Shown piece by piece: positions 28,941-40,186 of a stretch of DNA of 64,000 nt. Origin of the DNA: Variovorax paradoxus (GTDB lineage: Bacteria; Pseudomonadota; Gammaproteobacteria; Burkholderiales; Burkholderiaceae_C); NCBI GenBank assembly GCA_016806145.1, contig CP063166.1:6138001-6202000 (forward strand), read 5' to 3'. A model generated the notes under the pieces. That model was not told where the DNA came from. It saw only the letters and a list, made by a program, of their open reading frames with translations, and searched no databases. Positions within the stretch are counted from its first letter, which is position 1; each line of letters opens with the position of its first letter. The translations under genes were made by a program, and so were the position numbers.

Positions 28941-29894
28941 TTGGCCTCACTCGCACCCGCCTCTTTCGGTGCCGCCCTCGGGGCCGCGCGCGACGCCGCC
29001 GGTGCGCAGCATTATCCGCAGGGCACCCTCTACGTGGTCGCCACGCCGATCGGCAACCTGGCCGACATCACCTTGCGCGCGCTGCACGTGCTGCAGCTGG
29101 TCGACGCCGTCGCCTGCGAGGACACGCGCCACACCCAGAGCCTGCTGCGCGCCTACGGCATCGACCGCCCCGGCGCGCAATTGCTCGCGCTGCACCAGCA
29201 CAACGAGGCCGAGGCCGCGCAGGCCGTGGTCGCGCGGCTCGCGCAGGGCGAGCGCATCGCCTACGTCAGCGACGCCGGCACGCCGGGCGTGAGCGATCCC
29301 GGCGCACGGCTGGTGGCCGCGGTGCATGCGGCCGGCCTGCGCGCGCTGCCGCTGCCGGGCGCGAGCAGCGTCACCACGCTGGTCGGCGCGGCCGGGCTGG
29401 TGTCCGATGGCAGCGGCGACAGCGCGAGCAGCGCCTTCGTGTTCGCGGGCTTCCTGCCGAGCAAGGCCGGCGAGCGCGACGCCGCGGTGCAGGCGCTCGC
29501 GCGCGAGCCGCGCGCCGTGGTGCTGCTCGAGGCCCCGCACCGCATCGAGCCGCTGGCGCGCGCGCTGGCCGTGCTCGGCGAGCGCCGCGTCACCGTGGGC
29601 CGCGAGCTCACCAAGCAGTTCGAGGAGATCGCGACCCTGGCGGCCGGCGCCCTGCCCGCCTGGTTCGCGGCCGAGCGCGACCGCACGCGCGGCGAGTTCG
29701 CGCTGGTGCTGCATCCGGTGGCGGTGGCGGCCGACGACGGCGCCGAGGGCGAACGCGTGCTGCGCCTGCTGCTGGCCGAGCTGCCGGTCAAGAGCGCCGT
29801 GAAGCTCGCGGCCGAGATCACGGGCGCGCCGCGCAACACGCTCTACGACATGGCGCTGCGCATCCGCAACGCGTCGGACGAAGACGCCGACTAA
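28941..29894 (+). CDS. rsmI: 16S rRNA (cytidine(1402)-2'-O)-methyltransferase RsmI
   Basis: SAM-dependent ribose methyltransferase acting on C1402 of 16S rRNA in the decoding centre. The tetrapyrrole-methylase fold motifs are LYVVATPIGNLADITLRAL, CEDTRHTQSLL, YVSDAGTPGVSDPGARLV and LPLPGASSVTTLV. No ATG is available. I propose TTG at 28941 with GGAG 9 nt before it, giving 317 residues with a slightly long N-terminus. The stop overlaps the convergent IclR stop by 4 nt (29891-29894). Confidence 0.93.
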   Translation: MASLAPASFGAALGAARDAAGAQHYPQGTLYVVATPIGNLADITLRALHVLQLVDAVACEDTRHTQSLLRAYGIDRPGAQLLALHQHNEAEAAQAVVARLAQGERIAYVSDAGTPGVSDPGARLVAAVHAAGLRALPLPGASSVTTLVGAAGLVSDGSGDSASSAFVFAGFLPSKAGERDAAVQALAREPRAVVLLEAPHRIEPLARALAVLGERRVTVGRELTKQFEEIATLAAGALPAWFAAERDRTRGEFALVLHPVAVAADDGAEGERVLRLLLAELPVKSAVKLAAEITGAPRNTLYDMALRIRNASDEDAD

Positions 29895-30673
29895 GCGCGC
29901 TTCTTGAACAGCGCCGAGGCCCCGCTCGCCGTCGCCACCTCGGCCGCGGCCTGCATCAGCGTCGGCCCGAGCGTCTCCATGCGCTGCGGCGTCAGCCGCA
30001 CCGCGGGACCGGCGATGGTGATGACGCCGATGGCCGGGCCGGACGGGCCGAAGACCGGCGCCGCCATCGCGGTCATGCCGGGCGCGAAGACCTCGTTGAT
30101 CAGGCTGAAGCCGCGCTGGCGCGCCGCCTTCACGTAGACCATCACGGCCTTGAGCGTGGTCGGCGCCTTGGGGCCGAAGTCCTCGGGCTTGCCCAGGCCC
30201 TTCTTCGCGACCAGCGCCATCGCGTCGTCCTCGGGCAGGGTCGAGAGCCAGGCATGGCCGGCCGCGCTGCACGACAGCGCCACCGACAGGCCCATGTCCG
30301 GGTCGTAGCGCAGGCCGTGGGTGGCGCCCTGCGCCTTGGCCACGAAGGTGAGTTCGTCGCCGTCGACCACCGCCAGGCGCACCAGTTCGCCCGAGGCCTT
30401 GGCGAGCTGGTCGAGCAGCGGCTGCGCGACATCGACCACGCCCGAGTTGCTGAGGAACGAGAGGCCGATCGACACCAGCTTGATGGTCAGCACGTAGTGG
30501 CCGTCGCGCTGCTCCTGCCGCACGTAGCCGTAGCGGATCAGCTCCGTCAGCAGGCGGTGCGAGGCGCTCAGCGGGATCTGCAGATCGCCCGCCAGCAGGG
30601 ACAGGGGCACGCCCTCGGGATGGGACGCCAGATATTCCAGCACCCTGAAGCTGCGTCCCAGCATTTCGCTCAT
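29891..30673 (-). CDS. IclR family transcriptional regulator
   Basis: A 260-residue IclR-type regulator. The N-terminal winged helix-turn-helix is about residues 5-65 (FRVLEYLASHPEGVPLSLLA, then SASHRLLTELIRYGYV). The effector domain includes GELVRLAVVDGDELTFVAKA and the C-terminal MAAPVFGPSGPAIGVITIAG. GGGAG precedes the ATG. It is divergent from the TRAP transporter operon and an element with alternating TTTCC/GGAAA half-sites lies between them. A second copy of that element precedes the ThuA/PQQ genes, so it probably controls both. Confidence 0.93.
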   Translation of the reverse strand: MSEMLGRSFRVLEYLASHPEGVPLSLLAGDLQIPLSASHRLLTELIRYGYVRQEQRDGHYVLTIKLVSIGLSFLSNSGVVDVAQPLLDQLAKASGELVRLAVVDGDELTFVAKAQGATHGLRYDPDMGLSVALSCSAAGHAWLSTLPEDDAMALVAKKGLGKPEDFGPKAPTTLKAVMVYVKAARQRGFSLINEVFAPGMTAMAAPVFGPSGPAIGVITIAGPAVRLTPQRMETLGPTLMQAAAEVATASGASALFKKRA

Positions 30674-30733
30674 GTCAGTACTCCCGGTTCATGTCGCGGA
30701 CCGATGGCGACAGGCGAACTCTAGCAGATGAAG

Positions 30734-30769
30734 GGAAGGGATTTCCATAGTGGAAAGATTTTCCGATTC
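30734..30769 (+). promoter_or_regulatory. Putative IclR operator, copy A
   Basis: A 36-nt element holding TTTCCA-TAG-TGGAAA (30742-30756) and an overlapping GGAAA-GAT-TTTCC, i.e. three alternating half-sites. It is identical at 32 of 36 positions to the minus-strand element at 39484-39519. It sits between iclR and dctP, 61 nt from each start. IclR proteins often bind such multi-half-site operators as tetramers. Confidence 0.7.
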
Positions 30770-30830
30770 CCCACAGAATGCCTTCCATCGCATCGGCCAT
30801 GCCGCCTTCCGTCCCTCCCTGGAGTCCTTC

Positions 30831-31838
30831 GTGAAATTCCTTCGCACCTTCGCCCTCGCCAGCCTCTGCATCGGCCTCGCCGCGCCCGCCCTGGCGCAGC
30901 AGGAACGCACCATCCGCTTCGGCCACCTCAACAACACCGACCATCCGGTGAGCCTGGGCGTGAAGCGCTTCGCCGAGCTGCTCGCGGCCAAGAGCGGCGG
31001 CAAGATGAAGGTGCAGGAGTACCCGGCCAACCAGCTCGGCAACGAGATGCAGCAGCAGTCGGCGCTGCAGGGCGGCGTGCAGCAGATGTCGGCGCCCGCG
31101 ACCACCTCGCTCGCGGGCATCGTCAAGGACTTCGGCCTGGTCGACTTCCCGTTCGCGGTCGCCAGCTTCGAGCAGGCCGACCAGCTGCTCGACGGCCCGC
31201 TGGGCCAGGCGCTGATCGCCAAGCTGCCCGAGAAGGGCCTGGTGGCGCTCGGCTACTGGGACCTGGGCTTTCGCAACGTGACCAACAGCAAGCACCCGAT
31301 CACCAAGGCCGAGGACCTGCAGGGCCTGAAGATCCGCGTGATCCCGAACCCGGTGTTCCTCGACACCTTCAAGGCCTTCAAGGCCAACCCGGTGCCGATG
31401 CCCTTCGCCGAGCTCTACGGCGCGCTCGAGTCGAAGGCGGTCGACGGCCAGGAGAACCCGTTCGCCGTGATCCTGTCGAACAAGTTCTACGAGGTGCAGA
31501 AGTTCGTGAGCGCGACCAACCACGTGTACGCGGCCAACATCGTGCTCGTGAGCAAGAAGTTCTGGGACCAGCTCTCGCCCACCGAGCAGAAGTGGATGCG
31601 CGAGGCCGCCGACGAGGCGCGCGGCTACCAGCGCCAGACCAGCCGCGCCGCGGCGCAGAAGGCCGTCGGCGAGCTGCAGGCCAAGGGCGCGCAGTTCAAC
31701 GAGGTGGCGCCGAAGGAGCAGGTGCGCATGCGCGAGATCGCGCAGCCGGTGATCGACAAGTTCGCGGCCCAGTACGACCCGGCCATCGTCAAGCTCTACA
31801 ACGACGAGCTCGCGCGCATCCGCGGCGGCAAGCAGTGA
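30831..31838 (+). CDS. TRAP transporter substrate-binding protein (DctP family)
   Basis: A 335-residue periplasmic solute receptor that delivers a carboxylate-type ligand to the TRAP membrane proteins. The signal peptide is FLRTFALASLCIGLAAPALA, cleaved before QQERTIRFGH. Family motifs include GLKIRVIPNPVFLDTFKAF, which carries the carboxylate-binding arginine, and PFAELYGALESKAVDGQENP. The start is GTG at 30831 with GGAG 7 nt upstream; an upstream ATG would destroy the signal peptide. First gene of dctP-aroQ-like-dctQ-dctM-ELWxxDGT. Ligand unknown. Confidence 0.93.
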   Translation: MKFLRTFALASLCIGLAAPALAQQERTIRFGHLNNTDHPVSLGVKRFAELLAAKSGGKMKVQEYPANQLGNEMQQQSALQGGVQQMSAPATTSLAGIVKDFGLVDFPFAVASFEQADQLLDGPLGQALIAKLPEKGLVALGYWDLGFRNVTNSKHPITKAEDLQGLKIRVIPNPVFLDTFKAFKANPVPMPFAELYGALESKAVDGQENPFAVILSNKFYEVQKFVSATNHVYAANIVLVSKKFWDQLSPTEQKWMREAADEARGYQRQTSRAAAQKAVGELQAKGAQFNEVAPKEQVRMREIAQPVIDKFAAQYDPAIVKLYNDELARIRGGKQ

Positions 31839-31864
31839 GCGCACCGCAACCGCGAGCATCCATC

Positions 31865-32308
31865 ATGAAGTTCCTCGTCCTGCACGGCCCCAACCTCAAC
31901 CTCTTCGGCCGCCGCGAGCCGCACATCTACGGCCGCACCACCCTGGCCGAGATCGACGCGCGCATCGACAAGCTCGCGCGCGAGCTCGACATCACGGTGG
32001 CGACGATCCAGTCCAACCACGAAGGCGCGCTGGTCGACTTCCTGCACCAGCACATCGACGAGGCGCAGGGCGCGCTGGTCAATCCCGCGGGCCTCACCCA
32101 GCACGGCGTGCCGCTGCACGACGCGATCAAGGCCATGCCGTTCCCGACCATCGAGGTCCACATGTCGAACATCGCGGCGCGCGAGGCCTGGCGCGCGCAC
32201 TCGATCATCTCGCCGGCCGTGCGCGGCACGGTGCAGGGGCTCGGACCGCAGTCCTATCTCGCGGCGCTGCGCGCGCTGGTCGAGATCGTGCGCGACGACA
32301 AGCAGTGA
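31865..32308 (+). CDS. Type II 3-dehydroquinate dehydratase-like protein with altered substrate site
   Basis: A 147-residue member of the AroQ (type II dehydroquinase) family. Catalytic residues of the family are kept: Asn10 in GPNLNLFG, Arg17, Tyr22 in HIYG, Asn73, Glu97 and His99 in EVHMSN, Arg106 and Arg110. The block NPAGLTQHGVPLHDA differs from the usual N(A/P)(G)xxTHTSVALRDA. The His that contacts the substrate is Gln79 and the conserved Arg is His85. It lies inside a TRAP operon, between the receptor and DctQ genes, rather than with accBC as housekeeping aroQ often does. It may therefore act on a related imported cyclic acid. Housekeeping aroQ function cannot be excluded. Confidence 0.85.
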   Translation: MKFLVLHGPNLNLFGRREPHIYGRTTLAEIDARIDKLARELDITVATIQSNHEGALVDFLHQHIDEAQGALVNPAGLTQHGVPLHDAIKAMPFPTIEVHMSNIAAREAWRAHSIISPAVRGTVQGLGPQSYLAALRALVEIVRDDKQ

Positions 32309-32365
32309 GCCCGCGCGTGCGCCGTTGCACGGCGCGCGCCCACCGACTGGATTGAAGAGGACGAC

Positions 32366-32920
32366 ATGAATCGATGGATCGATCGCGCCTGCCGCGTGGT
32401 GGAGGCGCTGATCGCGACCTTCCTGGCCGTGATGGTGGTGCTGGTGTTCGGCAACGTGGTGCTGCGCTACGGCCTCAACTCGGGCATCACCGTGTCCGAG
32501 GAGGTCTCGCGCTGGCTGTTCATCTGGATCACCTTCCTGGGTGCGCTGGTGGCGCTGCGCGAGCATGCCCATCTCGGCGTGGACATGGTGGTCGGCAAGC
32601 TGCCGCCGCTGGGCCGCAAGCTGTGCCTCGGTGCCAGCCACCTGCTGATGCTCTACATCCTGTGGCTGCTGTTCCAGGGCAGCCTGGCGCAGACGCGGAT
32701 CAACTGGGACGTGGAGGCGCCGGTCACCGGCGCCTCGATGGCCGTGGTCTATGCCTCGGGCCTGGTGTTCTCGGTGCTGGCCGCGGCGCTGCTGCTGATC
32801 GAACTGCTGCGCCTGCTCACGGGCCAGCTGGCCGACGACCAGCTGGTGGCGATCCAGGAATCGGAAGAGGCCGCCGCGCTCGCGCAGGTGCTCGACCACG
32901 AACGGGAGCGCCGCGCATGA
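32366..32920 (+). CDS. TRAP transporter small permease (DctQ family)
   Basis: A 184-residue inner membrane protein with four predicted helices: about 12-36 (LIATFLAVMVVLVFGNVVL), 48-70 (WLFIWITFLGALVAL), 88-112 and 128-150. The motif SEEVSRWLFIWITFLGA is typical of DctQ subunits, which associate with the large permease. Its stop overlaps the dctM start by 4 nt (ATGA), so both are co-translated. The soluble C-terminal tail is acidic. Confidence 0.92.
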   Translation: MNRWIDRACRVVEALIATFLAVMVVLVFGNVVLRYGLNSGITVSEEVSRWLFIWITFLGALVALREHAHLGVDMVVGKLPPLGRKLCLGASHLLMLYILWLLFQGSLAQTRINWDVEAPVTGASMAVVYASGLVFSVLAAALLLIELLRLLTGQLADDQLVAIQESEEAAALAQVLDHERERRA

Positions 32921-34197
32921 CGATCGCCGTCTTCCTCGGATCGCTGCTGCTGGCCATGGCGCTCGGCATGCCGATCGCGTTCGCGCTGCTGGCCAGCGGC
33001 GTGGCGCTGATGTGGCAGCTCGACCTGTTCGATGCCCAGATCCTGGCGCAGAACCTGATCGGCGGCGCCGACAGCTTCCCGCTGCTGGCCGTGCCCTTCT
33101 TCATGCTCGCGGGCGAGATCATGAACGCGGGCGGCCTGTCGCGCCGCATCGTCGCGCTGGCGCTCGCGCTGGTGGGCCATGTGCGCGGCGGCCTGGGCTA
33201 CGTGACCATCATGGCCGGCTGCCTGCTGTCGGCGCTGTCGGGCTCGGCCGTGGCCGACGCGGCGGCACTGACCGCGCTGCTGCTGCCGATGATGGTCTCG
33301 GCCGGCCACGACCGCGCCCGCGCGGGCGGCCTGATCGCGGCCACCGGCATCATCGGCCCCGTGATCCCGCCGAGCATCGGGCTGGTGATCTTCGGCGTGG
33401 CGGCCAACGTCTCGATCTCCAAGCTCTTCCTCGCGGCCATCGTGCCCGGCCTGCTGATCGGCGGCGCGCTGTGGATCACCTGGGCCTGGCTGGTGCGGCA
33501 CGAGAAGATCGAGCCGCCGCCGCGCAAGTCCGGCCGCGAGATCGCCAGCGCCGCGCGCGAGGCCGGCTGGGCGCTGATGCTGCCGGTGATCATCCTGGTC
33601 GGCCTGCGCATGGGCGTGTTCACGCCCACCGAGGCGGCCGTGGTGGCCGCCGTCTACGCGCTCTTCGTGGCCACGGTCATCTACCGCGAGCTGCGTTTTC
33701 CCGATCTCTACAAGATCTTCGTGAGCGCCGCCAAGACCAGCGCGGTCGTGATGTTCCTGATCGCCGCGGCGATGGTCAGCGCCTGGCTGATCACGGTGGC
33801 CGACCTGCCCGCCAAGGTGGTGGCGCTGCTCGAGCCCTTCATGGGCAACAAGATCGTGCTGATGATCGCGATCATGCTGCTGGTGATGGCGGTGGGCACG
33901 GCGATGGACATGACGCCGACCATCCTGATCCTCACGCCGGTGCTGATGCCGGTGGTGGCGGCGGCCGGCATCGACCCGGTCTACTTCGGCGTGATGTTCA
34001 TCATCAACAACTCGATCGGGCTGATCACGCCGCCGGTGGGCGTGGTGCTCAACGTGGTGGCGGGCGTGGGCCGCATGCGCATGGACGAGGTCACGCGCGG
34101 CGTGCTGCCGTTCATGGCGGCGGAGTTCGCGATCATGTTCCTCATGGTGCTGTTCCCGCAACTGGTGACGGTGCCCGCCAAATGGTTCGGCGGCTGA
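32917..34197 (+). CDS. TRAP transporter large permease (DctM family)
   Basis: A 426-residue, about 12-helix sodium-coupled permease. Family motifs are the N-terminal LGMPIAFALLASG, GGADSFPLLAVPFFMLAGEIMN, GCLLSALSGSAVADAAAL, ATGIIGPVIPPSIGLVIFG, and the C-terminal INNSIGLITPPVGVVLNVV. It starts within the dctQ stop (ATGA). The next gene, an ELWxxDGT repeat protein, starts 1 nt inside its stop (TGATG), so the whole set is one translationally coupled operon. Confidence 0.95.
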   Translation: MTIAVFLGSLLLAMALGMPIAFALLASGVALMWQLDLFDAQILAQNLIGGADSFPLLAVPFFMLAGEIMNAGGLSRRIVALALALVGHVRGGLGYVTIMAGCLLSALSGSAVADAAALTALLLPMMVSAGHDRARAGGLIAATGIIGPVIPPSIGLVIFGVAANVSISKLFLAAIVPGLLIGGALWITWAWLVRHEKIEPPPRKSGREIASAAREAGWALMLPVIILVGLRMGVFTPTEAAVVAAVYALFVATVIYRELRFPDLYKIFVSAAKTSAVVMFLIAAAMVSAWLITVADLPAKVVALLEPFMGNKIVLMIAIMLLVMAVGTAMDMTPTILILTPVLMPVVAAAGIDPVYFGVMFIINNSIGLITPPVGVVLNVVAGVGRMRMDEVTRGVLPFMAAEFAIMFLMVLFPQLVTVPAKWFGG

Positions 34198-35639
34198 TGC
34201 GCGCGCCCGCCCTGCCGCCTTCGCGCTGCCGGCTGCGCGCGCTGTGCGCGGCGCTCGCGCTCTTCGTTCCGCTGGCCGCGTCGGCGCAGGACCCGGCGCG
34301 CGACGTGCTGCCCGAGCAGCTGCAGCCGCGCGCCTTTGTCGGGCCCACCGGCCTGGTGCGGCTGGGCCCGCGCGTGCTGTTCTCGGCCTTCCACGTGACC
34401 ACCGGGCAGGAACTCTGGAGCAGCGACGGCACCACCGCCGGCACCGTGCCGCTGAAGGACATCCGCCCCGGCTTTCGCGGCGCCTTCCCGAGCTGGCAGA
34501 CGCGCTTCGGCGCGCATGTCTACTTCACCGCCACCGACGGCGCGCACGGCCTCGAGCTGTGGCGCAGCGACGGCACGGCGCGCGGCACGCAGCGCGTGAC
34601 CGACCTGAATCCCGGCGAGGCCGACGCGATGCCGGCCGAGCTGACGGCCTGGCGCGATGCGCTGTACTTCGTCGCCAACGACGGCCGCCACGGCTTCCAG
34701 CTGTGGAAGACCGGCGGCGATGCGCGCAGCACGCAACGCGTGTCCGCGATCGACGCGGGCCCGGGCGCGGTGGTGCGCCAGCTCACGCCGGCCGGCCGGC
34801 GGCTGTTCTTCACCGCCACCAGCCGCGCCCATGGGCACGAGCTCTGGGTCAGCGAGGGCACGCCCGAGACCACGCGGCTGGTGAAGGACATCCGCCCCGG
34901 CGCGGAGGACGGCAACCTCGAGAACCTGGTGGCGATCGGCGACCGGCTCTGGTTCACCGCGAACGACGGCCAACATGGCATCGAGCTCTGGACCAGCGAC
35001 GGCAGCAAGGCCGGCACGCGCATGGTCAAGGACATCCGGCCCGGCGAGGGCGCGTCGCGGCCCGCGCATCTCACGGCCGTGGGCAGCACGCTCTACTTCG
35101 CGGCCGAGGACGGCACGCATGGCATCGAGCTCTGGCGCAGCGACGGCACCGAGGCCGGCACGCGGCTGGTGAAGGACCTGCGGCCCGGCGCCGCGAGCTC
35201 GGTGCCCGGCCCGCTCGCGGCCTTCGGCGGCCGGCTCTACTTCGCCGCCACCGACGGCGAGGCCGGCGCCGAACTCTGGACCAGCGACGGCAGCGCGGCC
35301 GGCACCCGGCTCGTGAAGGACCTGGGGCCGGGACCCGGCAGCGGCTCGCCCGCGCGCTTCGCGCAGGCCGCCGGCCGGCTGTGGTTCTCGGCCAACGACG
35401 GCGTGCACGGCGTGGAGCCCTGGTCCACCGATGGCAGCACGGCCGGCACGCGGCTCGCGGCCGATGTCGCGCCCGGACCGCGCCATGCGATGCCGCTGGG
35501 CTTCGTCGCGCTCGGCGACGCGGTGCTGTTCGTGGCCGACGACGGCCTCGGCAACGAACGCCTGTGGTCGCGCAACACGAAGGGCGGCGCGCGCCGCGCC
35601 ACGCTGATCGGCGATCCGCTGCGCGAGCGCCTGCGCTGA
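34197..35639 (+). CDS. Secreted ELWxxDGT-repeat (beta-propeller) protein
   Basis: A 480-residue exported protein. The signal peptide is CRLRALCAALALFVPLAASA. The mature protein is built of eight repeats of about 47 residues, each with an ELW-x2-DGT-x2-GT-like core: ELWSSDGT, ELWRSDGT, QLWKTGGD, ELWVSEGT, ELWTSDGS, ELWRSDGT, ELWTSDGS, EPWSTDGS. A ninth, degenerate one (RLWSRNTKGG) follows. Each is preceded by LYFxATDG-like strands, consistent with a beta-propeller. Such proteins are secreted and of unknown role. The ATG overlaps the dctM stop by 1 nt, tying it to substrate uptake; perhaps it captures or senses the ligand in the periplasm (inference). Confidence 0.85.
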   Translation: MRAPALPPSRCRLRALCAALALFVPLAASAQDPARDVLPEQLQPRAFVGPTGLVRLGPRVLFSAFHVTTGQELWSSDGTTAGTVPLKDIRPGFRGAFPSWQTRFGAHVYFTATDGAHGLELWRSDGTARGTQRVTDLNPGEADAMPAELTAWRDALYFVANDGRHGFQLWKTGGDARSTQRVSAIDAGPGAVVRQLTPAGRRLFFTATSRAHGHELWVSEGTPETTRLVKDIRPGAEDGNLENLVAIGDRLWFTANDGQHGIELWTSDGSKAGTRMVKDIRPGEGASRPAHLTAVGSTLYFAAEDGTHGIELWRSDGTEAGTRLVKDLRPGAASSVPGPLAAFGGRLYFAATDGEAGAELWTSDGSAAGTRLVKDLGPGPGSGSPARFAQAAGRLWFSANDGVHGVEPWSTDGSTAGTRLAADVAPGPRHAMPLGFVALGDAVLFVADDGLGNERLWSRNTKGGARRATLIGDPLRERLR

Positions 35640-35674
35640 GCCGCGCCGGCTGGCCGGCTCCTTTCCCGCACCAA

Positions 35675-35705
35675 CGAAAAAGGCCCCGGTTCGCACCGGG
35701 GCCTT
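35675..35705 (-). terminator. Terminator between ELWxxDGT and PQQ dehydrogenase genes
   Basis: AAGGCCCCGGT-TCGC-ACCGGGGCCTT is a perfect 11-bp stem. On the minus strand it is followed by TTTCG after extra Ts, ending the PQQ dehydrogenase transcript. On the plus strand it may also stop the TRAP operon. Confidence 0.85.
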
Positions 35706-35723
35706 CGAGCATCGCGCGCGGAC

Positions 35724-37940
35724 TCAGTACACGACGATCTTGCCGGTCGGTCGCGCGCTGTGGCAGTCGTTGTAGAAGTACTCGCCGGGCGTGTCGAAGC
35801 GGTGCTGCGCCGACTGGCCCGGTGCGAGCTTGAAGTCGAAGCGGCCCTCGAAGAACTGCGTGGCGCAGTGCTGGTTGGCATTGCCGGCGGGGTTGGTGAA
35901 GGTCACGGTGGTGTTCGCGGGCACGCGCATCCAGGTCGGCGTCATCGCGTTGACCGCGGTGCTCTCGCTGGTGCCGGGCGCGTTGGCCGCGGTCTGCACG
36001 CGCGCGAGGAACACGGTGTTGGGCGTGGGCAGCGCCGCGCCTTCCACCGGCTGGCCCGACACCGGCCGGCGCACCTCGGGCGGCCTGGGCGTGGCCGCCG
36101 GCGCCACCGTGCCGCCGACCTTGAAGGCCCAGAGGTAGTCGCCGCGCGGCGCCGAGTCGCCGTAGGGGATGCTGGTGCCGCCCGCGTAGACCGCGATGTA
36201 CTGCTCGCCGTCGACCTCGTAGGCCACCGGGCTCGCGGCGATGGCCGCGCCGGTCTGGAAGCGCCACAGCTCGTTGCCGTCGCCCGCGTCGAGCGCGAGC
36301 AGGTTGCCGTCGGGCTGACCGATGAACAGCAGGTCGGCCCCCGTGCTCAGGATGCCGTTGCCGTGCGCCAGCGAGTAGGGCATGGGCTTCTTCCACTTGA
36401 CCAGGTTGGTGCCCGGGTCGACCGCCACCACCGCGCCGGTCATGTAGGTGCCCGGCGGGCGCAGGCCGTTGCTCGACTCGGTCAGCGAGTGCGCGGCCGA
36501 GACGTAGCCCATGCCGGTGTAGACCAGGCCGGTGCGCGGGCTGAAGGACTGGTGGTTCCAGTTGGCGCCGCCGCCGTGGCCCGGGATCGACAGCAGCGGC
36601 ACGTCCCAGTGCGCGTCGTAGAGGCAGCCCTTGAGGTAGTTGGGCACGGCGCGGTTCGGGTCGCCCGGGATCGCGGTGCCCAGCGGCTGGTCGACGATGC
36701 AGGTCTCGGTCCACGCGCCCTGGCGCGGGAAGGGCTGGGTCGGCCAGCTCGCCTGGCGGGCGTCCTGCTTGACCGGCATCTCGTCGATGCCCAGCGGCGC
36801 GCTGCCGTCCTTGCGATCGAGGATGTAGTACATGCCGGTCTTGCTGCCGTAGATCACGACCTTGCGCTCCTGGCCCGCGATCCTCACGTTGGCCAGCACC
36901 GGCGACATCACGTTGTCCATGTCCCAGATGTCGTGGTGCACCGACTGGAAGTGCCACTTGTACTCGCCGGTCTTGAGGTCGAGCGCGACGATCGAGTTGG
37001 CGAACAGGTTCAGGCCCGGCCGCGTGGAGCCGTTCTGCGAGGAGCCGCCGCGCACGTTGCCGAAGGTCCAGTAGACGAGCCCCAGCTCGGGATCGACCGC
37101 CGGGTGGATCCACGGCGTGGCGCCGGTGCGGTCCGATTCGGGCGCGCCGCCCCAGGTGTCGTAGCCGCGCTCGCCCACGCGCGGCACGCCCCAGAAGGTG
37201 GAGAGCACCTTGCCCGTGGCCGCGTCGGCCGAGAAGGCGGCGCCGCGGTTGCCGTCGTTGGTGCCCACGTAGAGGCGCTTGTCGTGATAGACCAGCGCCA
37301 CCTTCTGCACCGCGCCCTGGTAGTCGGGGTCGGTGGTGCTGCTCGGGTACTGCTTGATCCAGACCGGCTTGCCGGTCTTCGTGTCGAGCGCCACCAGCCG
37401 GTTGCCCGTGGCCACGGTGTAGACCAGGCCCAGGTCCTTCGCGACCGCCGCGCCGCGGCGCGTGATCGCGCCATAGGGCGTGGTCCATTTCCACTTGGTG
37501 ACGCCAGTCTTGCCGTCGACCGCGATCAGGTTGCCGAGCGCCGACTCGATGTAGATCACGCCGTCGACCACCACCGTGGTGCTCTGGCTGTTGCCGGTGT
37601 TGGTACCGCCCTCGATGCGGTTGAGCCAGGCGCCGCCGAGCTGGCCGACGCGCGCCTTGTCGATCTTCGCGAGGCTCGAGTAGTTCTGGTTGCCGAGGTT
37701 GCCGCCCACCTTGGGGAAGTCGCGGTCGCCCGCGGTGCAGCAGTCGGCCAGTTCGGCGGCCGAGGGGCCGGCCGCGGGCGGTGCCGGCGGCGGGGCCGGT
37801 GGATTGGGTGCCGGCGGGGGCGCCGCGAACCAGGGAAAGGCGCCGCCGCCCGAATCGCCGCCGCCGCAGCCGGCCAGCAGCAGGGGCGCGCCGATCGCGC
37901 CGCAGGCGAGCAGCGTCGCTGCCAGTGATGTGAGTCGCAT
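35724..37940 (-). CDS. PQQ-dependent alcohol dehydrogenase-type lipoprotein with C-terminal cupredoxin-like domain
   Basis: A 738-residue exported quinoprotein. The signal peptide ends in the lipobox LLAGC, followed by a Gly- and Pro-rich linker. The eight-bladed PQQ propeller (about 75-590) includes NQNYSSL, ALGNLIAVDGKTG, RPGLNLFANSIVALDLKTGE, HHDIWDMDN and NGNLLALDAGDGNELWRF-like blades. The last 120 residues look like a cupredoxin (TPTWMRVPANTTVTFTNPAG, NQHCATQFF, GEYFYNDCHS). It has His and Cys-His candidates, but no Met ligand. It would oxidise an alcohol or polyol in the periplasm and could hand electrons to copper rather than heme c. It is downstream of, and probably co-transcribed with, the ThuA-like gene. 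Confidence 0.85.
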   Translation of the reverse strand: MRLTSLAATLLACGAIGAPLLLAGCGGGDSGGGAFPWFAAPPPAPNPPAPPPAPPAAGPSAAELADCCTAGDRDFPKVGGNLGNQNYSSLAKIDKARVGQLGGAWLNRIEGGTNTGNSQSTTVVVDGVIYIESALGNLIAVDGKTGVTKWKWTTPYGAITRRGAAVAKDLGLVYTVATGNRLVALDTKTGKPVWIKQYPSSTTDPDYQGAVQKVALVYHDKRLYVGTNDGNRGAAFSADAATGKVLSTFWGVPRVGERGYDTWGGAPESDRTGATPWIHPAVDPELGLVYWTFGNVRGGSSQNGSTRPGLNLFANSIVALDLKTGEYKWHFQSVHHDIWDMDNVMSPVLANVRIAGQERKVVIYGSKTGMYYILDRKDGSAPLGIDEMPVKQDARQASWPTQPFPRQGAWTETCIVDQPLGTAIPGDPNRAVPNYLKGCLYDAHWDVPLLSIPGHGGGANWNHQSFSPRTGLVYTGMGYVSAAHSLTESSNGLRPPGTYMTGAVVAVDPGTNLVKWKKPMPYSLAHGNGILSTGADLLFIGQPDGNLLALDAGDGNELWRFQTGAAIAASPVAYEVDGEQYIAVYAGGTSIPYGDSAPRGDYLWAFKVGGTVAPAATPRPPEVRRPVSGQPVEGAALPTPNTVFLARVQTAANAPGTSESTAVNAMTPTWMRVPANTTVTFTNPAGNANQHCATQFFEGRFDFKLAPGQSAQHRFDTPGEYFYNDCHSARPTGKIVVY

Positions 37941-38058
37941 GGTGAAGATCTCCGCTCCGAAGGAAGGGTTGTCCGCGATGGGAAAGAGGAACGCGGCGCG
38001 CAGCACCGCGCGCACGGCGCCGGGGCGCCGTGCGGGCCGCGAGGCCGCTGGGGTCAGC

Positions 38059-39108
38059 TCAGGTGCAGAAGGGCGTCAGGCCCATGGCCGACTTCACGCC
38101 CTGCACCACCAGCTTCTGGAACTGGTCCGCGCCGGGCCCGGTCGAGCTGGCGGTGAACGAGTGGTCGTTGTGGCCCAGCGTGCTGAGCCAGGCGCGGCCG
38201 CCGTCGTAGTACTGGCACCAGGCCACGGGGTGGAAGTCCGCATGGCCCGGATGCGGCGGCGAGGTCAGCGGCTTGAGCGTGGAGGTGTCGACCTTGGCGA
38301 GGAACTTCACGTTGGTCGGGAAGGGCGCGAGGTTGTACCACTCGTCCTGGAAGGTGAAGCGCTTGGGCAGGTCCACGGTGGAGGGGTCGTCGGCAATGAT
38401 CTCGACGTCGCCCGAGCGGTTGGGCCCGTGGTTGTAGAAGTTGGCGTTGCCCAGCAGGCCTTCGTAGTAGGGCCAGTTGTATTCGGCGCCGAAGGCGTTG
38501 TGCAGCCCGACGAAGCCGCCGCCGCGGCGCATGTAGTTGCGCAGCGCCGTGCGCGCGGCGTCGTTGCTGGTCGCGACCGAGCCGTTCCACAGCGTGTCGC
38601 GGTTCGAGCTCGCGAAGATCACGGCCTTGTAGTTGTTGATGCGGCTGCCGAGCACGGCCACGTCCTCGGTCCAGTCGGCCGTGATGCCCGCGTCCTTGAG
38701 CATGCGCACCAGGCCGGCCTGCATCACGTTGTCGGGGTTCATGACCGGGTTGAGGCCCGTGCCCATCGGCGTGCCGAGGTTGGCGTGGCGCGGTCCGGCG
38801 GTGCGCGAGTAGATCAGCACGCGGTCGGGCGTGGTGGCGAAGGCGCCCCAGTCGTTGTAGCACTTGCGGTCGGTGCCGCGGCAGACGTTGTAGTAGGTGT
38901 CGAAGCTGGTGTCGGGCGCCTCGGCCACGGGATCGGTGGGTCGGTCGTCCACCGGTTCTTCGGGCGCCGCGGGCGGCGGTGGCGGTGCCACCGCGACCGG
39001 CACGAAGCCGGCACCGCCGCCGCCGCTGCCGCCGCCACAGGCGGTCAGGACCAGGGCGAGCGCCGCGCTCGACACGAGGCCGAGGGTCAGGGAATGAGCT
39101 GGTTTCAC
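38059..39108 (-). CDS. ThuA-like domain lipoprotein
   Basis: A 349-residue exported lipoprotein. The signal peptide LVSSAALALVLTAC ends in a lipobox, followed by a Gly/Pro-rich linker to about residue 65. The rest is a ThuA domain: RVLIYSRTAGPRHANLG, YKAVIFASSNRDTLWN, RRGGGFVGLHNAFGAEYNWPYY and YYDGGRAWLSTLGHNDHSF. ThuA proteins have a glutamine-amidotransferase-like fold and act on (3-keto-)glycosides in several bacteria. Start is GTG at 39106-39108 after GGAG. The linker resembles that of the PQQ dehydrogenase 118 nt downstream, suggesting both are anchored together. An IclR-type site lies 375 nt upstream. Confidence 0.85.
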   Translation of the reverse strand: MKPAHSLTLGLVSSAALALVLTACGGGSGGGGAGFVPVAVAPPPPPAAPEEPVDDRPTDPVAEAPDTSFDTYYNVCRGTDRKCYNDWGAFATTPDRVLIYSRTAGPRHANLGTPMGTGLNPVMNPDNVMQAGLVRMLKDAGITADWTEDVAVLGSRINNYKAVIFASSNRDTLWNGSVATSNDAARTALRNYMRRGGGFVGLHNAFGAEYNWPYYEGLLGNANFYNHGPNRSGDVEIIADDPSTVDLPKRFTFQDEWYNLAPFPTNVKFLAKVDTSTLKPLTSPPHPGHADFHPVAWCQYYDGGRAWLSTLGHNDHSFTASSTGPGADQFQKLVVQGVKSAMGLTPFCT

Positions 39109-39483
39109 GAAGTCTCCTACTTGTAGTCGTGGCCGGGGCCGCGCGGGCGCGCCCTGCCGGGATGGCTCGGCTGCTTCCGATGGCCGGGGAAGCAGCCGAC
39201 GAAGCACCAAGGAATGCCGGCCTCAGACGGGAAAGCGGAAAAGCGCCGCCCTGCCTCGATCGGGTGCAGCAGGCCACCCTCCCTCGGCGAGCGAAGGAAG
39301 GACCGGGTGCACGGCGGAAGCGGGCGCGCGAAAGACGCGCGGGGGGCGCGGGCGAACGCTCAGGACGGCGCGTTCGGCACGCGCCGCAGATCGGACACGG
39401 ACAACGGGCGAGGCAGTGGCACGGATCGTCTCCAGGGCTGAAAGCGCAGGGCCAGGGGGCCCGGCTGCGGACGATCATAAGCA

Positions 39484-39519
39484 GAATTGGAAAGTATTTC
39501 CACTATAGAAATCCCTTCC
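39484..39519 (-). promoter_or_regulatory. Putative IclR operator, copy B
   Basis: Minus-strand 36-nt element matching the one at 30734-30769 at 32 positions, with TTTCT-ATAGT-GGAAA-TAC-TTTCC in the same arrangement. It lies in the 538-nt gap between ssb and the ThuA-like gene, oriented toward the latter. Apart from this element, the ssb terminator and a GC-rich leader (39109-39480), nothing else is seen in that gap. Confidence 0.65.
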
Positions 39520-39561
39520 TATTTTGCGGCTTCGCGCTTTCGTGCCCCGGAAGGCGCAAAG

Positions 39562-39595
39562 AAAAAGGGCCGATCGCGCATGGCGATCGGCCCTT
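39562..39595 (-). terminator. Rho-independent terminator of ssb
   Basis: On the minus strand AAGGGCCGATCGC, a 5-nt loop, GCGATCGGCCCTT is followed by TTTTC. It is a perfect 13-bp stem, 51 nt past the ssb stop. Confidence 0.88.
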
Positions 39596-39646
39596 GGCCG
39601 GCTGGCGGGGGGCGACGGGAGGCAAGCCTCGCGCCGCGGGATCCGG

Positions 39647-40186
39647 TCAGAACGGAATGTCGTCGTCCATGTCGTCGAAGCCCGACGAGGACTTGGCCGG
39701 TGCCTGGCGCGGCGCGGGCGCCGGTGCGCGCGGCGCGGCGGCCGGAGCGCGTGCCGGTGCGGGTGCATAGCCGCCACCACCGCCACCGCCATTGCCGCCC
39801 TGCGAGTAACCGCCGTCGTCGTAGCCGCCGCCCGCCGGGGCGCCCTGGCCCTGACGGCTGCCGAGCATCTGCATCTGGTCGACGCGGATGTCGGTCGCGT
39901 ACTTCTCGACGCCGTCCTTGTCGGTGTACTTGCGCGTGCGGATCTGGCCTTCGACGTAGATCTGCGAGCCCTTGCGCAGGTACTGCGCGGCGATTTCGGC
40001 CAGGCGGCCGTTGAACACGAGACGGTGCCACTCGGTGGCTTCGCGCATCTCGCCGCTTTGCTTGTCCTTCCACTTGTCGGTGGTCGCGAGGGTCGCGTTG
40101 CACACCTGGTCGCCGCTCGGGAAGGTACGGGTTTCGGGATCGCGGCCGAGGTTGCCGACGAGGATGACTTTGTTGACCGATGCCAT
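39647..40186 (-). CDS. ssb: Single-stranded DNA-binding protein
   Basis: A 179-residue SSB. The OB-fold occupies 1-112 ([58 protein letters not shown]). A Gly-rich then Pro/Ala-rich linker leads to the acidic tip DDMDDDIPF, which recruits replication and repair proteins. It coats single-stranded DNA during replication, recombination and repair. It lies near uvrA and is divergent from the ClC gene; ssb-uvrA proximity is common in proteobacteria. Confidence 0.97.

Follow-up and report, generated by a model that had tools for sequence, protein, structure and literature searches.

The window analysed here, a stretch of 64,000 bases of Variovorax paradoxus DNA (G000:C1:6138001-6202000, from a source genome, G000, of 9,439,028 bases in 3 contigs), contains two near-identical operator-like elements that tie the gene of an IclR-family regulator to two operons. 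One of them, divergent from iclR, encodes a tripartite ATP-independent periplasmic (TRAP) transporter, an AroQ-like enzyme and an ELWxxDGT repeat protein, and the other a ThuA-like lipoprotein and a pyrroloquinoline quinone (PQQ)-type quinoprotein dehydrogenase. The sites, their conservation, their association with IclR genes and the linkage of the genes are features of the sequences themselves, and on them rests a regulatory link of IclR to both operons that is considered very probable.

Two putative tandem operators and their operons

Elements A (30734-30769, +) and B (39484-39519, -) had been described in an earlier, sequence-only reading of the window as matching at 32 of 36 bases, as sharing the order TTTCY-ATAGT-GGAAA-N3-TTTCC, and as lying, respectively, between iclR (29891-30673, -) and dctP (30831-31838, +) and upstream of the thuA and PQQ dehydrogenase genes; all of this was reproduced, the gap between element B and thuA being 380 bp. 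Each element consists of two 13-bp IclR palindromes (GGAAr-N3-TTTCC) with 18 bp between their centres (30734-30746 and 30752-30764 at site A; 39507-39519 and 39489-39501 at site B), the TTTCC-N5-GGAAA inverted repeat being the junction of the two palindromes, and both sites read towards their own downstream operon. In the part of Suvorova and Gelfand 2021 available to us, the same motif, TGGAAATNATTTCCA, is given for E. coli IclR, and tandem sites 18-22 nt apart are predicted for IclR-family regulators, together with three-box sites of alternating direction (PMC8222616). The arrangement at A and B is of this tandem kind, with 18 nt between centres at both sites; the target start is 67 bp away for operator A and dctP, but 380 bp away for operator B and thuA.

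In the whole 9,439,028-base genome the 23-bp core has exactly two matches at up to 3 mismatches, sites A and B, and the reversed 23-bp pattern has none at the same setting. Within the window, GGAAANNNTTTCC is matched three times at up to 1 mismatch, against a shuffle mean of 0.28, 1 of 100 shuffles also reaching three. The genome search suggested in the sequence-only reading thus finds the motif at 2 places and not at many unrelated promoters. A widespread repeat is ruled out by this count, and chance likeness of the two elements by the genome, genus and shuffle controls together.

29891..30673, minus strand: iclR, IclR-family regulator of 260 residues, divergent from dctP; PF09339 and PF01614 above cut-off
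30734..30764, plus strand: operator A, boxes GGAAGGGATTTCC (30734-30746) and GGAAAGATTTTCC (30752-30764)
30751..30779, plus strand: putative dctP promoter, -35 TGGAAA at the second box, 17 bp, -10 CAGAAT
30831..31838, plus strand: dctP, TRAP solute-binding protein; PF03480 and TIGR00787 above cut-off
31865..32308, plus strand: aroQ-like gene, type II dehydroquinase family, Gln at the His81 position; PF01220
32366..32920, plus strand: dctQ, TRAP small permease; PF04290, weak YiaM match
32917..34197, plus strand: dctM, TRAP large permease; PF06808 and TIGR00786, YiaN match below its cut-off
34197..35639, plus strand: ELWxxDGT repeat protein; TIGR04534, 8 stretches; signal-peptide-like N-terminus by eye
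35724..37940, minus strand: PQQ-type quinoprotein dehydrogenase; PF01011; lipoprotein-like (LLAGC) and with a cupredoxin-like C-terminal stretch, both by eye
38059..39108, minus strand: thuA-like lipoprotein gene; PF06283; LTAC by eye
39474..39502, minus strand: putative thuA promoter, -35 TGGAAA at the second box, 17 bp, -10 TATGAT
39489..39519, minus strand: operator B, boxes GGAAGGGATTTCT (39519-39507) and GGAAATACTTTCC (39501-39489)

The regulator belongs to the IclR family (HTH_IclR 43.8 bits, cut-off 22; IclR_C 85.1 bits, cut-off 24) and falls outside the PcaR/PcaU/PobR subfamily (TIGR02431 110.8 bits vs a cut-off of 284.75), and DctP, DctQ and DctM, encoded in one operon, make up a TRAP transporter.

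Both putative promoters overlap their operators. That of dctP, with 8 of 12 consensus bases counted by hand, is below the reach of the promoter scan and keeps the same spacing in relatives, while that of thuA is the only sigma-70-like site in 30600-39700 (0.3 expected in shuffles), its -10 being kept in relatives. Of 70 sites from the window and its relatives, 68 have, 16-18 bp from TGGAAA, a best hexamer that agrees with TATAAT in at least 4 of its 6 positions. Broken down by spacing, the share of sites with a -10-like hexamer is 0.30, 0.27 and 0.49 at 16, 17 and 18 bp, respectively; spacings of 10-15 bp give 0.01-0.09, and for any spacing between 19 and 39 bp the count is 0 of 70. A regulator bound at the downstream box would cover the -35, so that repression is the simpler reading, IclR proteins being described as including repressors, activators and dual regulators in the part of the review seen (PMC8222616).

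The thuA leader (window 39108-39489) is 380 bp long, compared with about 370 bp in L036 and L094 and 76-177 bp at 11 other sites, and blocks of it are conserved among the window, L036 and L094. A gene hidden in this long leader was considered and set aside, the alignment of the three genomes displaying no conserved small open reading frame by eye. Upstream of site B, after an ssb-like gene (ssb named by eye), stands a terminator-like hairpin of 13 pairs (39565-39595, -).

Operator distribution and gene linkage across Variovorax

The survey of the genus covered 101 genomes, the source genome included. The core produced 107 matches in 53 of the 101 genomes, overlapping matches merging to 82 places, compared with 3 matches for the reversed control pattern. 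Most of these places (59) lie within 300 bp of an IclR gene of at least 65% identity and 2 beside one at 53-60%; 13 are directly upstream of thuA, within 500 bp, and 8 are elsewhere. With 74 of 82 places adjoining iclR or thuA, the motif is not spread over many unrelated promoters at the genus level either. Among the 8 remaining places, one precedes the dctP-aroQ-dctQM genes of G017 and one is near a dctP of 47% identity in G071; the other six are away from the iclR, thuA and dctP of this set (G006:C211:3364, G021:C18:15679, G036:C2:226612, G048:C3:3372837, G062:C1:172667, G082:C2:343602), that of G021 being some 4 kb from dctQM genes; these six are to be set against the 3 matches of the reversed pattern.

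Counted from the regulator, a site is present within 300 bp of 59 of the 66 IclR genes of at least 65% identity. The 7 without one include two with the same form at 4 mismatches (L194, L193), two with a shifted form at 5 (L192, L195) and three with weaker resemblance only (L191, L196, L051). Among the matches listed, only 2 of 41 IclR genes of 53-60% identity have the site. At L199, L200 and L202, an IclR at 56-59% is accompanied by other dctP/dctM genes and by an AroQ that reads NPAGLSFRS, the GGAA-TTTCC sites upstream being weaker; these loci suggest that IclR-TRAP-AroQ units form a wider family in Variovorax. In draft assemblies, contigs are often broken off within dctP, adjacent to a site (L044, L045, L046, L047, L069, L079), perhaps reflecting dctP copies similar enough to break the assembly.

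Operator and regulator appear to change together. In 62 IclR genes scanned, 2 of them without a site and most of the loci chosen for having one, the protein and site distances of the resulting 60 IclR-site pairs correlate with a Mantel r of 0.75 (reached in 0 of 2000 permutations), a value to which the shared tree contributes. The left box is GGAAGGGATTTCC in 18/18 IclR proteins at 80% identity or more and CCAAGTG in 28/36 at 70-75%, and in four loci (L057, L061, L073, L081) a pair of IclR genes occurs together with both operator types, each operator adjoining its own regulator, which provides a case of two paralogous IclR proteins with two operator types in one genome.

The co-occurrence of the two gene sets, on which the sequence-only reading had made its proposal depend, was also observed. 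At thresholds of E <= 1e-150 (at least 80% identity) for the dehydrogenase and E <= 1e-60 (at least 77% identity) for ThuA, both proteins are found in the same 24 of the 101 genomes, a 25th dehydrogenase match, at 59% in G013, being without a ThuA match. IclR at 65% or more is present in 23 of these 24 genomes vs 31 of the 77 others (Fisher p 7e-7, kinship ignored), and the single ThuA-bearing genome without it, G075, is 73% complete and has an IclR fragment at a contig end. A site precedes thuA, or dctP-thuA, in 18 of the 18 ThuA-bearing genomes in which that stretch is available, 13 of them directly and 5 (G006, G023, G027, G047, G063) with dctP between, in the order iclR2, site, dctP2, thuA, PQQ dehydrogenase; the remaining 6 (G003, G008, G009, G025, G041, G062) are cut off by a contig end lying 93-402 bp before thuA. 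The thuA-PQQ genes keep the site even where they are away from the TRAP genes, by about 157 kb in G015 and on another contig in G017. The ELWxxDGT gene was seen in 11 of the 16 ThuA-bearing genomes (of 24) that could be judged, and not in G001, G007, G015, G017 and G071. In the 31 genomes with IclR and without ThuA, dctP adjoins IclR in 31, aroQ in 28, and dctQ and dctM lie within 6 kb in 17; none of these 31 has ELWxxDGT, PQQ dehydrogenase or ThuA genes beside IclR, some of the stretches being only 7-8.5 kb long.

Enzymes, cofactor supply and loci in other genera

The ThuA and dehydrogenase assignments hold at the family level. The former passes PF06283 with 135.6 bits (cut-off 33.4), and the latter PF01011, the PQQ-family beta-propeller, with 256.5 bits, to which a fold match is added. 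Structure comparison recovered ThuA-like proteins and class-I amidotransferases for the ThuA model, and quinoprotein alcohol dehydrogenases for the dehydrogenase model; both models are of moderate quality (mean pLDDT, a per-residue confidence measure, of 71.3 and 72.6) and confirmed folds only, naming no substrate. The solved ThuA-like structures nearest to the ThuA model have titles that carry no function. No PDB entry was matched when A1 was used in a profile search at 1e-60. Two more specific assignments of the dehydrogenase were rejected, namely a membrane glucose/quinate/shikimate dehydrogenase (TIGR03074, 172.7 bits vs a cut-off of 832.65, the best stretch covering only positions 394-611 of 783) and a methanol/ethanol-type PQQ dehydrogenase (TIGR03075, 258.6 bits vs 480.05). 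Its HHDIWDMD aligns by eye with HHDLWDYD of the membrane-type quinoprotein of the same genome (C1:389074-391428), and lanthanide dependence is not claimed from WDMD, the membrane-type enzyme having WDYD at the same place.

The AroQ-like enzyme passes PF01220 (168.8 bits, cut-off 23.3) and NF003807 (178.2, cut-off 130) and is below TIGR01088 (158.4, cut-off 169.85). In the alignment it retains Arg, Tyr, Asn, Asp and His, the residues of the type II dehydroquinase (DHQ2) mechanism; at His81 (M. tuberculosis numbering) it has Gln, within NPAGLTQHG. In the portion of PMC6011038 seen, DHQ2 His81 is described as bonding the C5 hydroxyl of the substrate. The substrate of the AroQ-like enzyme may, to judge from this position, be a compound other than 3-dehydroquinate itself, and the compound may thus be a 3-dehydroquinate analogue. 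His81 is kept in 4 of 65 AroQ copies compared (the second copy of L036, L104, L110 and L126), a set in which some genomes are counted twice and L112 and L198 have no TRAP gene in the stretch examined. No signal peptide is visible by eye on the window's AroQ.

In relatives, the gap between the ELWxxDGT and dehydrogenase genes holds pqqB, pqqC, pqqE and a gene for an alpha/beta hydrolase akin to proline iminopeptidase, identified by family scan in L057, by similar open reading frames in L036 and L053, and by tblastn in L095 and L096. A pqqC 96-98% identical to that of the cluster also occurs at G072:C26:67933-68667 and G092:C13:341583-342326, both genomes being without a match to the PQQ-dehydrogenase/ThuA pair. 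Elsewhere in the source genome, C1:4221165-4223024 encodes a QuiC-family protein spanning 625 of 635 model positions, below cut-off as in all 101 genomes, and by eye it is surrounded by genes resembling shikimate dehydrogenases and pcaB.

Outside the genus, the sample consisted of the best 80 loci with dehydrogenase relatives, L095-L097 apparently being Variovorax contigs already counted. ThuA is present in 31 of the 80. AroQ, QuiC or a quinate/shikimate dehydrogenase accompanies 17/31 ThuA-bearing loci vs 3/49 others (tblastn, E up to 1e-6; union by hand), and pqqC 16/31 vs 0/49, many of the 49 being distant homologues or short contigs. Family scans of L106, L110 and L119 recovered QuiC-family (below cut-off), shikimate/quinate dehydrogenase and AroQ proteins. 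With up to 4 mismatches allowed, sites stand before ThuA in Xylophilus (L101) and Acidovorax (L104), and are missing at ThuA in L099, L100, L102, L103 and L127, the last of which has one at dctP; ELWxxDGT genes occur near ThuA/PQQ in L100, L102 and L103.

A proposed pathway, its rivals and known systems

Site placement, motif distribution and gene co-occurrence together support the single IclR-controlled system postulated in the sequence-only reading. From them we infer a two-operon regulon of the divergent IclR, comprising dctP-aroQ-dctQM-ELW and thuA-PQQ dehydrogenase, in which two IclR dimers, perhaps as a tetramer, would bind the two boxes 18 bp apart at each operon. Bound IclR would most likely repress both promoters and be released by an effector, probably a pathway intermediate. 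A stepwise pathway under such a regulon is plausible and moderately favoured. In it, the exported PQQ dehydrogenase would work in the periplasm, oxidising one hydroxyl of a quinate/shikimate-type alicyclic hydroxy-acid; ThuA would act in that compartment too, with the ELWxxDGT protein as a presumed accessory; the TRAP system would import the resulting keto-acid, and the AroQ-like enzyme would dehydrate it towards 3-dehydroshikimate or an analogue, which the QuiC-family enzyme encoded elsewhere in the genome could take to protocatechuate. The quinate/shikimate-type substrate is our best guess, held with slightly better than even confidence. Counted in favour of the proposal, besides the site and linkage data and the agreement with published IclR sites, are the pqq genes in the cluster of relatives, the AroQ, QuiC or quinate/shikimate dehydrogenase genes at ThuA-bearing loci, the nearly full-length QuiC-family match in the source genome, and the likeness of HHDIWDMD to HHDLWDYD.

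Several observations weigh against this proposal. As regards the substrate, 61 of the 65 AroQ copies, that of the window included, have NPAG and no His at position 81, which speaks against plain quinate, and QuiC and quinate/shikimate dehydrogenase genes stand beside the pair in Actinobacteria and not in the Variovorax cluster. As regards the cofactor, the source genome has no pqqC match (E <= 1e-30), present in 56 of the 101 genomes, and no pqqE match (E <= 1e-20), and a pqqC match is lacking in 10 of the 24 ThuA-bearing genomes. As regards control, the site is found at thuA in only 2 of 7 ThuA-bearing Burkholderiales loci outside Variovorax (at up to 4 mismatches), and where IclR is at 65-70% the thuA site keeps (A/G)GAAGGGATTTCC and the dctP site does not, the two sites differing more from each other. 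Linkage is nested on one side only, dctP and mostly aroQ occurring without ThuA or PQQ dehydrogenase in the 31 genomes mentioned, 14 of which have no dctQM match within 6 kb of dctP-aroQ (some stretches being short), so that the import step is not constant. Related genomes and species are, moreover, not independent samples.

Two of these points have a counterpart in side observations. Six loci (L039, L040, L056, L064, L067, L089) contain dctP and aroQ beside IclR with no dctQM match within 6 kb, a pattern that makes DctP-AroQ a more constant pair than the full TRAP set. The source genome encodes at least 2 PQQ-type dehydrogenases with no pqqC or pqqE match; the strain is possibly a PQQ scavenger and, should the enzyme use PQQ, would have to obtain it from neighbours.

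The absence of His81 can be accommodated in an undescribed pathway with parts common to Burkholderiales and Actinobacteria, in which the PQQ lipoprotein dehydrogenase and ThuA would together turn a quinate-like compound (acid, ester or lactone) into a keto-acid other than 3-dehydroquinate, which TRAP could import and an AroQ paralogue with a changed C5 pocket would dehydrate. We advance it tentatively, as somewhat doubtful; if true, a defined reaction could be assigned to this kind of ThuA protein. The same lack of a His for the C5 hydroxyl agrees with a regulon for sugar acids, in which the dehydrogenase would oxidise an aldose or aldonate, TRAP import a keto-sugar acid and the AroQ-like enzyme be a changed dehydratase. 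The permeases point the same way through their sub-cut-off matches to YiaMN, the models of the 2,3-diketogulonate carrier, as does 7bbr, the second-best PDB match of DctP, the ligands of which we take to be sugar acids. In the accessible text of PMC8222616, sugar-acid genes are named among the frequent members of IclR regulons. On the other hand, the AroQ-like enzyme keeps its other catalytic residues, and AroQ, QuiC or quinate/shikimate dehydrogenase genes lie near the dehydrogenase/ThuA pair in Actinobacteria; the sugar-acid alternative is regarded as unlikely.

The nested linkage, with dctP (31/31) and aroQ (28/31) beside IclR in genomes devoid of PQQ/ThuA, and the separation of thuA-PQQ from the TRAP genes in G015 and G017 would fit two operons that share an operator and a common inducer and serve two compounds. 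Nonetheless, dctP, thuA and the PQQ gene are consecutive behind one site in five genomes, TRAP genes or AroQ are near PQQ/ThuA in other genera, and within the genus PQQ/ThuA without IclR is confined to the one 73% complete genome with the IclR fragment; this explanation is regarded as improbable. The 380-bp distance to thuA could even suggest that element B is a remnant without activity, or a copy that arose by chance, thuA-PQQ being outside IclR control. Such an idea is hardly tenable, considering that the site directly before thuA is kept in 13 genomes while the flanks differ, and that the -10 is kept at 16-18 bp.

Partial likenesses to known systems can be recognized. The dehydrogenase has HHD(I/L)WD(M/Y)D in common with the TIGR03074 membrane PQQ dehydrogenases, as judged by eye against the member in its own genome, and scores far below their cut-off. 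Among NCBIfam models, the YiaMNO carrier of 2,3-diketo-L-gulonate is the only one matched by dctQ and the best one for dctM, with scores of 96.3 against 260 and 521.2 against 800 bits, under the cut-offs, and its neighbour genes differ. The tandem sites that Suvorova and Gelfand 2021 describe for the IclR family serve target genes that differ from those here, and the present combination of target genes was not found in the part of PMC8222616 seen; likewise, among the matches listed in searches of the open-licence PMC literature, no description of the IclR/TRAP/AroQ/ThuA/PQQ-dehydrogenase set was seen. For this kind of ThuA protein, the finding points to a specific partner enzyme and to a pathway that can be examined.

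Another close known system is the pca-qui regulon of Acinetobacter baylyi, which combines PcaU of the IclR family with QuiA, QuiB, QuiC and pqq genes. According to the available part of its description, quinate is converted to protocatechuate in the periplasm by QuiA, QuiB and QuiC, the protocatechuate branch is under PcaU, and a putative IclR-type site is located near the pqq genes (PMC4213383). Unlike that set of three periplasmic enzymes, the Variovorax genes encode a lipoprotein-like dehydrogenase, a ThuA-like protein, a TRAP importer and an AroQ devoid of His81 and, by eye, of a signal peptide. The arrangement suggests an ability of bacteria to carry out the oxidation of quinate-type plant acids outside the inner membrane, followed by TRAP import of the keto-acid, whereas Acinetobacter is reported, in the portion of PMC4213383 seen, to complete the conversion in the periplasm.

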